Assembly: GCA_019685555.1 (NCBI GenBank)
Contig: JABFQN010000009.1
Span: 1 to 51,008 of the forward strand
DNA: 51,008 nucleotides
Source of the DNA: Candidatus Bathyarchaeota archaeon A05DMB-3
GTDB taxonomy: Archaea > Thermoproteota > Bathyarchaeia > Bathyarchaeales > Bathycorpusculaceae
Direction: 5' to 3'
The notes under the pieces were generated by a model, which saw only the letters and a list, made by a program, of their open reading frames with translations, did no database searches and was not told the origin of the DNA. Positions 19,281 through 33,389 of this stretch are shown in pieces. Position 1 is the first letter of the stretch; every line of letters begins with the position of its first letter. The translations under genes and the position numbers were made by a program.

Positions 19281-20243
19281 TTGAAAACTGTTGGTGTGGT
19301 GACGAGTGGCGGAGACGCGCCGGGGATGAACGCGGCCATAAGGGCTGTTGTGCGCGTGGCTTACGCGAAAGGCTTTAGGGTTTTGGGTTTTGAAAGGGGT
19401 TGGGAAGGCTTAATCAGCAACTGTTTTAGGCTTTTAAATCCTCGTTCTGTGGGTGGAATAATCCAGACGGGGGGCACAATGCTGTTAACTTCGCGGTGTC
19501 CAGAGTTCAAAACGCTGGAAGGCATTAGAAAAGCTGCTGAAAACCTTGCCGCAAACAAAGTGGACGGTTTGGTGGTTATCGGCGGCGACGGCTCCTTTAG
19601 AGGCGCTTTGGAGCTTAGCCGCGAAACAGACGCCCTAATCGTTGGGGTTCCAGCCACCATAGACAACGACGTTTACGGAACAGAAGAGACAATAGGATTT
19701 GACACAGCTGTGAACACTGCTGTTGCCGAGATAGACAAAATCCGCGATACGGCTATATCCCACGAAAGAATCTTCGTCGTGGAAGTCATGGGCCGAAAAA
19801 GAGGCTTTTTGGCTTTGGCTGTCGGCTTAACCGTCGGCGCTGAAATGATCCTCGTCCCAGAAGTGCCCGTAAGCATGGAGGAAGTTTACAAAACCGTGAA
19901 GGAAAACGCCGCCAAGGGGAAGCGGTCCGGCATTATTGTGGCGGCTGAAGGCGCAGGTGACACCCGCAAAATCGCAAGAGAAATCGAACAAAACACTGGG
20001 GCAGAAGTGCGCCTAAGCATTGTTGGCTACGCCCAGAGAGGCGGAAGCCCAACAGCCAGAAGCCGTCTGCTGGCAAGCCTATTAGCTTGCGAAGCGGTTA
20101 ATTTGTTGGCTCAAGACATTGGAAAACGTGTCGTTGGATTGCAGAAAGGCGAAATAACAAACATAGACCTTGAAACTTCATGTAAAAACGTTAAACCGTT
20201 AAACTTTGAAATGCTTAAGCTGGCGAAAGTTCTAGCAACATAA
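19281..20243 (+). CDS. pfkA: 6-phosphofructokinase, ATP-type residues
   Basis: PfkA family, 320 aa. The phosphoryl-donor loop is GGDGS with G104, and the second discriminating position is Ala in PATIDNDVYGTEETIGFDTA. Gly at 104 and no lysine before TIDND is the ATP-dependent pattern. The catalytic Asp is in TIDND, with substrate motifs VEVMGRKRGFLA and YAQRGGSPTA. The start is TTG after GGGTAGGGGGATG. It converges with a paralogue that has PPi-type residues. Archaea more often use ADP-dependent kinases, so the family points to a bacterial-type origin. Confidence 0.93.
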   Translation: MKTVGVVTSGGDAPGMNAAIRAVVRVAYAKGFRVLGFERGWEGLISNCFRLLNPRSVGGIIQTGGTMLLTSRCPEFKTLEGIRKAAENLAANKVDGLVVIGGDGSFRGALELSRETDALIVGVPATIDNDVYGTEETIGFDTAVNTAVAEIDKIRDTAISHERIFVVEVMGRKRGFLALAVGLTVGAEMILVPEVPVSMEEVYKTVKENAAKGKRSGIIVAAEGAGDTRKIAREIEQNTGAEVRLSIVGYAQRGGSPTARSRLLASLLACEAVNLLAQDIGKRVVGLQKGEITNIDLETSCKNVKPLNFEMLKLAKVLAT

Positions 20244-20261
20244 AGCCTTTTAATGGAAATT

Positions 20262-21290
20262 TCAGCCGAAGAAGACTTTGGCTATGTTGTAAAGCTCCAA
20301 GTCCACCGTTTTCCTTTTGCCTACCACGTCTTTAAGCGGCACTGATACGATTTTGTTTCCTTGAAGAGCCACCATGTAGCCAAACTTTCCTTCGTGAACG
20401 AGGTCTATGGCTGCTATGCCGAATCTTGTGGCAAGTATGCGGTCGTAGGCTGTTGGTGAACCTCCCCGCTGGATATGCCCCAAAACCACTACGCGGGTTT
20501 CTATACCCGTGCATTTTTCAATCTCCTTAGCCAAATAATAGCCTACTCCGCCAAGGCTTATGTGGCCGAACTCGTCGATGCGTTCGCTGTAAACTATTTC
20601 TTTTCCGCCTTTTGGCTTTGCACCTTCCGCCACAACGATTAGGCTGAAGTTTCTGCCGCGCTTCTGTCTGCGTCTGATGTATTCGCAAACTTCTTCAATG
20701 TCAAAGGGTTTTTCTGGAATGAGTATGACGTCTGCACCGCCAGCTAAGCCAGCTTCTAAGGCGATGTGCCCAGTGTAGCGTCCCATAACTTCAAGGATCA
20801 TAACCCTGTTGTGGGCTTCGGCTGTGCTGTGCAACCGGTCAAGGGCTTCTGTGGCTATGGCTACAGCTGTGTTAAAGCCGAAGGTGTAATCGGTGCCCGA
20901 CAAGTCATTGTCTATGGTTTTGGGAACCCCTACACATTTAAGTCTATAATCCGCCATTTTATAGGCGACGCTTAAGGTGTCGTCTCCGCCTATGGCGATA
21001 ACCGCTTCTAAGCCAGCTTTACCGGCATTTTCCATTATCTGTTCTGGTCCTCCTTCGCGTTTGAAGGGGTTGGTTCTTGAAGTGCCGAGGATGGAGCCTC
21101 CGCGGGGCAGAATCCCTGAAACAGCGTTAAGGTTAAGGGGTGTAAAGGCGTTTTCGAGAAGTCCGCGCCATCCGTCTCTTATGCCGATAATTTCGTCGTT
21201 GTAGGATTGGATTCCCCTTCGAACTACAGCCCTTATAACAGCATTAATTCCAGGAGCGTCGCCGCCTCCGCTTAAAACTCCAATTTTCAA
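20262..21290 (-). CDS. pfp: Phosphofructokinase, PPi-type residues
   Basis: Same family, 342 aa, but with GGDDT (D104) and PKTIDND (K124), the two-residue signature of pyrophosphate-dependent enzymes. In characterised members these block ATP and orient PPi. The reaction would then be reversible and serve glycolysis and gluconeogenesis. Other sites are intact (VMGRYTGHIA, HIQRGGSPTA). It is transcribed with class II aldolase 18 nt upstream on the same strand. It converges with pfkA, leaving 18 nt between the stops. Confidence 0.92.
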   Translation of the reverse strand: MKIGVLSGGGDAPGINAVIRAVVRRGIQSYNDEIIGIRDGWRGLLENAFTPLNLNAVSGILPRGGSILGTSRTNPFKREGGPEQIMENAGKAGLEAVIAIGGDDTLSVAYKMADYRLKCVGVPKTIDNDLSGTDYTFGFNTAVAIATEALDRLHSTAEAHNRVMILEVMGRYTGHIALEAGLAGGADVILIPEKPFDIEEVCEYIRRRQKRGRNFSLIVVAEGAKPKGGKEIVYSERIDEFGHISLGGVGYYLAKEIEKCTGIETRVVVLGHIQRGGSPTAYDRILATRFGIAAIDLVHEGKFGYMVALQGNKIVSVPLKDVVGKRKTVDLELYNIAKVFFG

Positions 21291-29722: not shown

Positions 29723-30129
29723 TGGGAGAGGGTGCTCCTCCACCGGCTAAGCGCATTCATGCAGCTTGGCGCGTCAAAGAAGCCAGCTATGAAGTGCGTG
29801 TGAGAGTGGACCCCATAATCGCGGGCTCCGAACCCGCCTACATCGGCCTCATGGAGCGAATCTGCGCCTTCATCGAGCCATCCTTAATCACGCTCGGCTG
29901 CTTAAGGGCCACCCCTAGAACCTATCGCTTCCTTCCTGAGACCATTAGAACGCAACTAACGGAGAGGACCCCTTGGGGCCGCGGATATCCGCTCACAACT
30001 AGACTTTCATTATATGATGAGCTTTTCACCGTGGCCAGGGATTATAATGTTCCGGTCGCTTTATGCAAGGAATCCGCGGAAGTTTGGCGTAGTCTCAAGC
30101 TCAGGTCAAAGTGTAACTGCATGCCATAG
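29704..30129 (+). CDS. Element protein, unknown (141 aa)
   Basis: Starts with GTG overlapping the primase end by 19 nt; a GTG at 29722 is an equally good start. Sequence: Pro-rich leader, RIHAAWRVKEASYEVRVRVDPII, AYIGLMERICAFIEPSLITLG, and LTTRLSLYDELFTVARDYNVPV. It looks like a compact alpha/beta protein ending in a Lys/Cys tail. No family is recognised. It lies between primase and integrase, and probably belongs to the same transcript. Confidence 0.5.
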   Translation: MGGPIIVGEGAPPPAKRIHAAWRVKEASYEVRVRVDPIIAGSEPAYIGLMERICAFIEPSLITLGCLRATPRTYRFLPETIRTQLTERTPWGRGYPLTTRLSLYDELFTVARDYNVPVALCKESAEVWRSLKLRSKCNCMP

Positions 30130-30145
30130 GGGTGGTGCTGTATCG

Positions 30146-31558
30146 TTGACGAAGGCTGAGGGAAAGGCTGGTCTTCCACAAGCGCCCAAAGGCGCTACTC
30201 GGCAAAGCGAGTCTAAAAATGGGAAGTCGGCTAAGCCAAGCCGCTCGCACCAGCCCCCTATACGCTGCCCGGAATGTGGCTCCTCTCGCGTCTGGAAGGA
30301 TGGCCTCCGCTACACCAGGCTTGGCGACGTGCAGCGGTGGCTATGTCGAAGCTGCGGTCTCAGATTTAGCGAGTCGGTCTTCCAACAGCAAGTAGAGGTT
30401 GACATCGTTGGCAAGGGCTTTAAAGTGTTTCATTCTGGACCGGATATGCCTAAGCGACAAATCGAACGGGGCGATTTTTCCGTCAAGGAACGCCCGAATC
30501 AGCTTTCTCTCGTGGTCCGTGAAGATGTAGCTCCTCATGACGCATCACTAATTACTAAAGCAGGGAAATATATAAATACTGCTATAGGGAAATACGTTAA
30601 TCGCCGAGTAAGCGCCGAGGAAGGAGAGGCGAAAAACTTGGCCGCAGCCATTCAAGGCGAAAAGCAGGCTGCGGGAGCCACATTAGACACAGAGGCCAAA
30701 CTGCTGGAATACGCCTGGTGGATGAAGAAGCAGGGCTACGCTGAATCAACAATTCTGGACAGATGTAGAATCCTTAAAACCTTGACAAGGCGAGGGGCTA
30801 ACCTTCTGGATTCTGAAAGCGTTAAGGCTGTCATAGCACGCCAATCCTGGAGTGAAGGTCGCAAGGAATTTGCAGTTGACGCCTACACAAGCTTCCTTTC
30901 AATGATGGGCTTAACATGGCAGCCTCCAAGATACAGGCGGATTGAAAAGCTTCCATGGGTTCCCACAGAAGCGGAAATCGACCAGCTCATAGCCGGCTGC
31001 AGCCATAAAATCGGAGCCTTCCTGCAGCTCATTAAAGAGACAGGAATGAGGCCCGGGGAAGCCCTACGCTTAAAATGGATAGACATTGACCCCGTCAATA
31101 GGACCGTAAACGTTACACCTGAAAAGGGAAGCAACCCGAGAATCTTCAAGGTTTCAGCCAGCCTCATGGAGAGGCTTAACGCTTTGCCAAGGGCTTCAAC
31201 CAAAGTTTTCGGAGAGGCCAAGTTTAAAACTATTCAGAAAAACTTCCAGGAGCAGCGTAAGCGTGTTGCAGCCAAGCTTAGGAATCCAAGGATTCAAAGG
31301 ATATGCTTCCTAACGTTGAGGCATTGGAAGGGAACAATGGAATACCATAAGACAAAGGACATCCTGCACGTTATGCGCCTATTGGGCCATAAAAACATCA
31401 AGAACACGCTTGTCTATACGCACCTGGTTGACTTTGAGGCTGACGAATACGTTTCAAAGGCTGCCTGGACCCTAGAAGAGGCTCAAAAGCTTATAGAGGC
31501 AGGGTTTGAATACGTCTGCGATGTTGAAGGCGCTAAGCTTTTCCGCAAACGCAAATAG
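30146..31558 (+). CDS. int: Tyrosine recombinase/integrase with N-terminal zinc ribbon
   Basis: Catalytic residues in order: Arg in ETGMRPGEALRLKW (about residue 302), RH in FLTLRHWKGT, His in LLGHKNIKN and Tyr in TLVYTHL. The usual first His of HxxR is replaced by Leu. A SAM-like core-binding domain precedes (about 180-270). An unusual N-terminal zinc ribbon CPEC...CRSC occupies about 40-70. Start: TTG 30146, with GGGGTGGTG upstream and right after the previous stop. The longer frame from 30014 overlaps that gene. It ends 41 nt before the attachment repeat and is intact, not split by integration. Confidence 0.9.
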   Translation: MTKAEGKAGLPQAPKGATRQSESKNGKSAKPSRSHQPPIRCPECGSSRVWKDGLRYTRLGDVQRWLCRSCGLRFSESVFQQQVEVDIVGKGFKVFHSGPDMPKRQIERGDFSVKERPNQLSLVVREDVAPHDASLITKAGKYINTAIGKYVNRRVSAEEGEAKNLAAAIQGEKQAAGATLDTEAKLLEYAWWMKKQGYAESTILDRCRILKTLTRRGANLLDSESVKAVIARQSWSEGRKEFAVDAYTSFLSMMGLTWQPPRYRRIEKLPWVPTEAEIDQLIAGCSHKIGAFLQLIKETGMRPGEALRLKWIDIDPVNRTVNVTPEKGSNPRIFKVSASLMERLNALPRASTKVFGEAKFKTIQKNFQEQRKRVAAKLRNPRIQRICFLTLRHWKGTMEYHKTKDILHVMRLLGHKNIKNTLVYTHLVDFEADEYVSKAAWTLEEAQKLIEAGFEYVCDVEGAKLFRKRK

Positions 31559-31746: not shown

Positions 31747-32364
31747 TTATCCTTTTTCCGCTGTTAAAATGCGGTAGCCGCTTTTCCTCGCGAGAACAGT
31801 GCAGTTTCCAAAGGTTTCTTCGAAGATTTGTTGCAGTCTTTTTCCGCCAATTTTTGACTTCAAAACCATTTGCAGCCTAGCCTTTTCCACCATGTGTTTT
31901 GGGGCTTCTGTGATTATGGCTTTTACTGTGGCTAGTCCAGCGCTTACCGGCGGGTTTGAAAGGATGCAGTTGAAAAGCATGCCTTCTACGGGTTTGTATA
32001 GATAGCCGCGTCTAACTTCAGCGTTATGTATATGGTTTAGTTTAATGTTGTGTTTTGCAAGCTTTACAGCACGTTCGTTTACATCCACCATGACCACGTG
32101 AAGTTTTGGGTTTAGGGAGGCGGCCACTATTCCGATGGCTCCGTAGCCGCATCCAACATCCAACACATAACCGCTTTCTGGAAGAACCATAGCCTTTACA
32201 AGGAGTTCTGTGCCTAAGTCCACGCGTTTTTTGGAGAAAACTCCGGAGGCTGTTAGAAACTTGAAGGGTTTCCCCCTAAGATTTGCGTGGATTAAGCCGA
32301 ATTTTGGCTTTGACTTTGGATGGGCTGTGAAATAATGTTCTGTCTTTTCAGCGTTGCTGGGCAT
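31747..32364 (-). CDS. RsmC-like SAM-dependent methyltransferase
   Basis: Small methyltransferase fold: VLDVGCGYGAIGIVAASL (SAM loop), MVDVNERAVKLAKHNIKLN, then ILSNPPVSAG, the NPPY-like catalytic motif of guanine-N2 RNA methyltransferases. Length about 205 aa from the ATG at 32364, which overlaps the cbf5 stop as TAATG. An upstream in-frame ATG (32388) is less likely. Cotranscription with the pseudouridine synthase suggests an rRNA or tRNA target (inference). Confidence 0.87.
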   Translation of the reverse strand: MPSNAEKTEHYFTAHPKSKPKFGLIHANLRGKPFKFLTASGVFSKKRVDLGTELLVKAMVLPESGYVLDVGCGYGAIGIVAASLNPKLHVVMVDVNERAVKLAKHNIKLNHIHNAEVRRGYLYKPVEGMLFNCILSNPPVSAGLATVKAIITEAPKHMVEKARLQMVLKSKIGGKRLQQIFEETFGNCTVLARKSGYRILTAEKG

Positions 32365-33389
32365 TAGATTTCGCCGCTTTTCCAGCATTTCGGATATGTG
32401 CCCCTGGGCATTAAAACCCTCTTAACCTTTGCCACTAAGCCGTGTTCCATGCTTAAGATTTCTTCTGTAGATGCTTGGGCTTCTGCTAGGGCTACAGCCT
32501 CGCCTTTCAATGTAAAAATGGCTACTATAGAACCGCTGTTTATTCCAGTTTCAAGGGATAAAACCCCAGGCGCGGTTAGGCTGGCTCCGTGGCAGACAGC
32601 GTCCACAGCAGAGTCCCTAACGTAAATTTTTGGAACCAGCGCCAAAGCTTTCTCCATGGGCCATATAAACTTTTTTAGAATTGTGTCGTCTCCGGTTTTC
32701 TGCCATTCCATAAACCAGTAGGCCACATAATGCAAGGTTACATTGCCTTCTTCTTCGGTGAAGGGGCCGGCTCTTGTTCTGCGAAGCTCTTGCATATGCG
32801 CTCCACAGCCTAAAACTTCGCCCATGTCGTAGCATAGTTTGCGGATGTAAGTGCCTCCTTCACACCCCACTTTGAAAAGCACGTTGCGGCCCTCCATTTC
32901 ACGAAAGTCTATGTAATAGATTTTTCTTGTCCGCAGCTGACGCTTAACAGAGGCCCTTAAAGGCGGCCGTTGATAAATGGTGTCTTCAAACTCTTTTAGC
33001 ACGTCCTTAACACGGTTTTCTGACGTGTCGCCGTGAAGCTTCATTACACATAGGTATTCTTTGCCGCTTAAAAGCAACGCCTGAACTATTTTCCTAGCCT
33101 CTTCTAGGGTTACGGGCAGAACGCCGGTCACTTTGGGATTTCTCTGGCGCTTTTAAGCCTCTAGAGTCCCGCCGTGGCCGACATTTTGTATTTTTAGTAT
33201 ACGTTTAGTCCATGCAGCTACCTCGTGGCTTGTGGGTCCAGCCGGCTTGTCCAAGTTTATGACGCCGAACCTTATGTAGTCTTTTGCTGGGCGTTCTTCT
33301 GGTTTGCAGCCGTAACGGGAGTTGGTTTCGCCTTCGGCTTTCACCAGCAGCTGGCGTTTAATTTCCCATGGAGCAACACTTCTAGGCAT
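32364..33389 (-). CDS. cbf5: H/ACA RNP pseudouridine synthase Cbf5, intron-containing
   Basis: Exon 1 (33389-33161) encodes the N-terminus with FGVINLDKPAGPTSHEV and NVGHGGTL. Exon 2 (33139-32364) starts in the catalytic Asp codon and continues PKVTGVLPV. The catalytic domain ends near 230; a PUA domain follows (IYVRDSAVDAVCHGASL to the C-terminus). Removing the 21-nt intron gives a 334-residue protein of normal length. Without splicing, translation stops after 78 residues. It guides rRNA pseudouridylation with H/ACA RNAs. Operon: rpl14e, cbf5, methyltransferase. Confidence 0.93.
33140..33160 (-). other. BHB intron in cbf5 mRNA (21 nt)
   Basis: On the minus strand the surroundings fold as a canonical bulge-helix-bulge: outer helix GGGA/TCCC, central 4-bp helix CTCT/AGAG, a 3-nt bulge AGA on the 5' side, a 3-nt bulge AAA on the 3' side, and inner helix GGC/GCC with an 8-nt loop. 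Cutting each bulge after its second nucleotide joins CTAG to ATCCC, restoring Leu-Asp-Pro. The intron contains the in-frame TAA. Confidence 0.92.

Follow-up and report, generated by a model that had tools for sequence, protein, structure and literature searches.

The cbf5 gene of Candidatus Bathyarchaeota archaeon A05DMB-3 is interrupted by an in-frame stop codon beside the codon of its catalytic Asp. In this study, we analyzed the 51-kb window that carries the gene (51,008 nucleotides, the whole stretch of DNA considered here), in which cbf5 lies on the minus strand from 33389 to 32364. The minus strand at the junction reads GGC CAC GGC GGG ACT CTA G/AGGCTTAAAAGCGCCAGAGAA/AT CCC AAA GTG. Translated without splicing it gives GHGGTLEA, a stop, and then KRQRNPKVTGV in the same frame, which confirmed the in-frame TAA reported in a first-pass annotation made from the sequence. 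The insert proposed there, 33140-33160, was exact to the base: it is 21 nt long and splits the catalytic Asp codon as G/AT. Removal of these bases joins CTAG to ATCCC, giving GGTLDPKVTGVLPV, and restores GGTLDPKV. The predicted outcome of cutting both bulges, with Thr-Leu-Asp-Pro-Lys restored, was thus reproduced in the sequence.

The joined Cbf5 has 334 amino acids, with the domains DKCLD, TruB_N, TruB_C_2, and PUA in this order, and it aligns over its full length with solved Cbf5 structures with LDP in register. The Asp of the LDP motif is catalytic in the TruB/Cbf5 family (PMC2738675). No second TruB-family match was found in the genome, in which cbf5 is present as a single copy. The features of the locus are listed in Table 1.

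Table 1. Features of the cbf5 locus, in positions of the window.
Feature	Position	Strand	Description
cbf5 exon 1	33161..33389	-	ATG at 33389; 76 codons, then G as first base of the catalytic Asp codon; DKCLD and the beginning of TruB_N
21-nt BHB intron AGGCTTAAAAGCGCCAGAGAA	33140..33160	-	same site in 12/12 nearest relatives and in 194 genomes of the phylum
intronic in-frame TAA	33153..33155	-	unspliced reading ends after 78 residues
bulge-helix-bulge motif	33135..33170	-	GGGA-CTCT-[AGA]-GGC-loop-GCC-AGAG-[AAA]-TCCC; covariation in relatives
cbf5 exon 2	32364..33139	-	from the last two bases (AT) of the Asp codon through the stop codon; TruB_N, TruB_C_2, and PUA of the joined protein

It has been reported that crenarchaeal cbf5 introns are 16-44 nt long and occupy exactly the codon position seen in the window (PMC2738675, Yokobori 2009); the first-pass annotation had noted that cbf5 introns are known in Crenarchaeota. 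Their splicing at the same site is supported by cDNA, and according to the same authors the enzyme needs splicing (PMC2738675). In the published table, Thermoproteales, Cenarchaeum, Nitrosopumilus, and Korarchaeum are entered with 0 nt, and its authors inferred that the intron was gained in the ancestor shared by Desulfurococcales and Sulfolobales and lost at least twice afterward (PMC2738675). A 2020 paper still cites the crenarchaeal case only. The window intron, non-coding and 21 nt long, lies inside the published size range, and its position (CTAG/intron/ATCCC) matches the published one. A frame-preserving intron placed exactly in the catalytic codon had been called remarkable, a view that did not hold: this placement is the rule, the cbf5 intron of Desulfurococcus amylolyticus is also 21 nt long, and several others preserve the frame (PMC2738675). 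The window intron itself belongs to an already known type, and neither its length nor its placement is novel.

With the crenarchaeal introns (Watanabe 2002; Yoshinari 2006; Yokobori 2009, PMC2738675) the window intron shares the gene, the nucleotide, the BHB geometry, the size range, and the predicted machinery. The host, however, is one of the Bathyarchaeota and not of the orders from which the cbf5 intron has been described; the wider set surveyed here spans 13-76 nt instead of 16-44; its distribution points to an origin probably older than the published one; and the stop rule presented below is absent from PMC2738675. In the literature searched, which left out most subscription journals, we found no report of a cbf5 intron outside Crenarchaeota, and the phrase "cbf5 intron" occurred only in PMC2738675. 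The window intron extends a textbook case to Bathyarchaeota; what makes it interesting is how widely it occurs, its probably greater age, and the stop rule. Archaeal tRNA and rRNA introns cut by EndA have the BHB motif, the endonuclease, and the ligase in common with cbf5 (PMC6379350, PMC7714728), whereas with cbf5 the RNA to be cut is an mRNA and splicing yields a codon.

A complete BHB, GGGA-CTCT-[AG^A]-GGC-loop-GCC-AGAG-[AA^A]-TCCC, spans the 36 nt between 33170 and 33135. It has an outer helix GGGA/TCCC, a central helix CTCT/AGAG, an inner helix GGC/GCC, 3-nt bulges AGA and AAA, and predicted cut sites after the second bulge nucleotide. Every pair named in the first-pass annotation was present. 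Strict Watson-Crick motifs of the cbf5 geometry occurred once per strand in the 51-kb window, compared with about 0.5 per strand in shuffles, and the folding-energy z of the cbf5 region was -1.5 to -1.7, which is not significant by itself. Folding energy was therefore dropped as proof of an intron. Since the motif alone was not decisive, comparison with relatives had to decide. The other strict BHB, at 20200-20252 (+), straddles the 3' end of a phosphofructokinase-like gene (19281-20243) and lies next to another gene of that family in convergent orientation (20262-21290); as a further intron it was rejected, being within chance expectation. Elsewhere in the window, a 514-aa ORF at 30014-31558 (+) resembles, by its letters, a tyrosine recombinase with a Cys-rich N-terminal part.

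The nearest relatives in the named collection were 12 separate MAGs with 65-88% identity, 11 titled Candidatus Bathyarchaeota and one an uncultured archaeon. The annotation had proposed comparing the intron's presence, length, and position in such relatives, and all 12 carried an insert at the identical nucleotide, with lengths of 17-31 nt and differing sequences. An assembly error, which it had named as a possible refutation, is ruled out by these differing lengths and sequences in separate MAGs. That the gene is a pseudogene, or a product of sequencing or assembly error, is extremely improbable more generally: the in-frame stop does occur in a MAG, but inserts of different sequence occupy the same site in 194 genomes, and the gene is of an essential type, present as a single copy, with an intact and conserved exon 2.

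We then read the cbf5 junction in 268 genomes of Thermoproteota, detecting introns independently of stop codons. The intron was present in 194 and absent in 74, always at the same nucleotide; bearers spanned at least 53 family-level groups in several classes, and lengths were 13-76 nt (median 22). The automatic junction rule failed at three loci (L242/L313, which are not cbf5, and L244/L310, which were read by eye). In a further family, f62, reading by eye showed a 14-nt intron that follows a variant of the motif, THSGTL. Among the Bathyarchaeia sampled, 78 genomes had the intron and 39 did not. The class of G165 (taken as Ca. Caldiarchaeum subterraneum) contains introns of 13-23 nt as well as intronless genera, and the class of G239, probably Methanomethylicia (mcrA in 27 of 40 genomes), has the intron in some genomes and lacks it in others. 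A small class (f33, f37, f42) has introns of up to 76 nt. In G287, taken as Ignisphaera aggregans, the intron is 39 nt, the published value, which checks the method and anchors its class as the Desulfurococcales-Sulfolobales group. Family f35, assigned through a near-identical Pyrobaculum EndA chain, is intronless and matches the published state. An AmoA search, used for class membership only, gave no match anywhere, controls included. Some introns exceed the published range (L115, 76 nt; L256, 67 nt; L261, 57 nt), and the 13-nt introns of L126, L127, L135, L304, and L308 fall below it, with almost no loop beyond the BHB. An ordinary ORF caller reads an intron-bearing cbf5 as broken, which concerns about 70% of the 268 genomes.

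Covariation was examined in the 182 distinct introns. All four pairs of the central helix were intact in 173 and all three pairs of the inner helix in 148, while all 8 pairs were present in 84, and the outer helix was complete in fewer than half. Since it is incomplete in over half, many relatives have a relaxed BHB. The third base of the Thr codon in exon 1 and its intron partner were T:A in 41 introns, C:G in 136, T:G in 3, and other in 2; the two sides changed together in 8.7 of 10 independent tree pairs and never oppositely (p 0.004). The first-base pair of the Leu codon also covaried in the right direction, with few independent pairs. Codon choice in the exon differed as well: the Gly codon was GGG in 117/182 with the intron vs 12/74 without (p 1e-12), and the third base of Leu was A in 162/182 vs 22/74 (p 1e-20). 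Both biases held their direction after phylogenetic pairing (median p 0.016). A preference for GAT at Asp was strong in raw counts but had a median p of 0.29 after pairing and was not relied on. These results indicate that the BHB structure is under selection and that the paired exon bases are constrained only where the intron is present.

We also looked for the machinery. The host genome encodes an EndA alpha subunit (L234; FAVYKHGPGLEHAPY) with catalytic Tyr, His, and Lys, whose loop Lys lines up with K44 of the Crenarchaea-specific loop in Aeropyrum pernix EndA, and an EndA beta subunit (L235) without the catalytic His. These correspond to the two subunits of a splicing endonuclease of the (alpha-beta)2 type, and a hetero-oligomer is predicted from the genes. 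A gene for RtcB, the established ligase in archaeal tRNA splicing, is present as well. An (alpha-beta)2 EndA with the Crenarchaea-specific loop cuts both canonical and relaxed BHBs (PMC6379350). In the proposed mechanism, exon 1 of the transcript would pair over 4 bp with the intron end and over another 4 bp with the first bases of exon 2, so that two bulges of 3 nt each remain. The endonuclease would cut each bulge between its second and third nucleotides and release the 21-mer, and RtcB would join the exons to form GAT (Asp) in the catalytic motif GGTLDPKV. The earlier proposal that the BHB intron must go for the catalytic Asp to be restored agrees with the covariation, the exon codon constraint, and the genes for a two-subunit EndA and RtcB, and this mechanism is almost certainly right as far as genome comparison can tell.

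Frame-preserving introns followed a rule of their own. Lengths that are multiples of 3 were depleted, with 30 of the 182 distinct introns vs 61 if a third were so. All 30 contained a stop in the frame of exon 1, vs 11 expected from shuffled interiors; in the other two frames, stops were found in 7 and 6 of the same introns. The remaining 152 introns shift the frame, and 65 of them have a stop in the exon 1 frame. The association gave a Fisher p of 2.6e-10 with all introns, a median of 2e-5 with one per genus, and 0.003 with one per family; paired on the tree, 6.3 pairs went in the predicted direction and 0 in the opposite one (median p 0.03). The TAA in the window is one instance of this rule. 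Spliceosomal introns resemble the cbf5 introns here: Jaillon in 2008 reportedly found that eukaryotic introns of 3n length are depleted and that the remaining ones tend to hold an in-frame stop. This eukaryotic pattern is taken as selection against translating unspliced message. The machinery is unrelated, however, and the rule here concerns one intron family rather than a genome-wide set. To our knowledge, no nonsense-mediated decay of the eukaryotic kind is known in archaea.

An unspliced message would be translated only up to the intronic stop and would yield no Cbf5 that carries an insert in the active site. A likely reason for the rule is that full-length Cbf5 in which extra residues replace the catalytic Asp could enter H/ACA particles and block them, which truncation at about 78 residues would likely avoid. 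Alternatively, truncation may regulate Cbf5 output, a form of the original authors' negative-regulator idea. With this rule it becomes possible to test whether cells that use EndA for splicing pay a real price for translating unspliced cbf5.

The position, motif, covariation, codon constraint, stop rule, machinery genes, and distribution were all observed in this analysis. We consider it very probable that these are best explained as a whole by a BHB-type intron in the cbf5 pre-mRNA that is cut by EndA, joined by RtcB, and most likely inherited vertically. Ribosomes that bypass or read through the insert, with the RNA never spliced, might also deal with so short an insert, and elsewhere such genes were initially confused with cases of frameshifting (PMC2738675). 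Such recoding is nevertheless very improbable, because 152 of the 182 distinct inserts shift the frame and the other 30 all contain a stop. Read-through would moreover put Glu and extra residues in place of the catalytic Asp; the covariation of the exon-intron pairs follows a BHB, the genome has EndA and RtcB, and crenarchaeal cDNA shows splicing. An intein is an in-frame protein insert with a splicing domain, and two relatives do carry cbf5 inteins, at a different site; the window insert, 21 nt with a TAA, is too small for an intein or for the ribozyme core of a self-splicing intron, and the chance of either is practically nil on size alone.

To address the age of this BHB intron, we mapped the trait on a FastTree built from 197 Cbf5 proteins; it covers a single gene, its deep branches are weak, and it includes no outgroup phylum. 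Presence and absence of the intron require no fewer than 17 changes on this tree vs at least 42 with shuffled labels. An ancestral intron that was never regained accounts for the pattern with 18-21 losses over four rootings, whereas a history of gains only requires 34-36 of them at one nucleotide; the parsimony root state on this outgroup-free gene tree is intron. The losses are exact to the base. As the tree keeps taxonomic families together (67 changes, minimum 63), transfer between families should be rare and not the main story. Fewer losses than gains and an intron-bearing root favor an early intron with many exact losses over the published gain. These results suggest that the intron was probably present in an early Thermoproteota ancestor, far earlier than the published Desulfurococcales-Sulfolobales gain.

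Independent gains or lateral spread into cbf5 at a preferred site are an unlikely alternative to ancestral presence. The distribution is patchy: 74 genomes lack the intron, and one genus in the window's family (g3) includes both states. The exon sequence, constrained by the protein, comes close to forming the outer helix unaided and could be a favored site. The numbers of gains and losses, the root state, and the family-wise Cbf5 tree given above argue against it. Descent from the early ancestor with many losses remains the most likely history. We consider it likely that vertical descent, with repeated losses exact to the base, kept the intron at one nucleotide, and that retained copies were selected so that the unspliced frame terminates, presumably through H/ACA poisoning or regulatory truncation. 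The survey speaks to a question that is still unsettled: how old the best-documented archaeal mRNA intron is, and how it arose.

One intronless cbf5, L044 (G130), has flanks GGGACTCTAG/ACCCC that are typical of intron-bearing genes, as if after a precise recent loss; these retained bases would be expected if spliced RNA had been copied back into DNA. One Bathyarchaeia MAG, G043, has a second cbf5 (L103) that clusters with Nitrososphaeria-like sequences, by contamination or transfer. The cbf5 inteins were found in L060 (G006, of the window's family) and L061 (G110, of another Bathyarchaeia family), each about 520 aa and located before the Cys of TYIRKLC. Among the papers searched, none stood out as describing an intein within cbf5. 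In L282 (G424) and G424:C55:19758-20198, cbf5 is split over two contigs at residues 183/186, near this intein site, which may reflect an unassembled intein or a plain contig break. The L060 intein matches Pfam Intein_splicing and LAGLIDADG_3, and its host gene also carries a 22-nt BHB intron, so that both kinds of insert occur in one cbf5.
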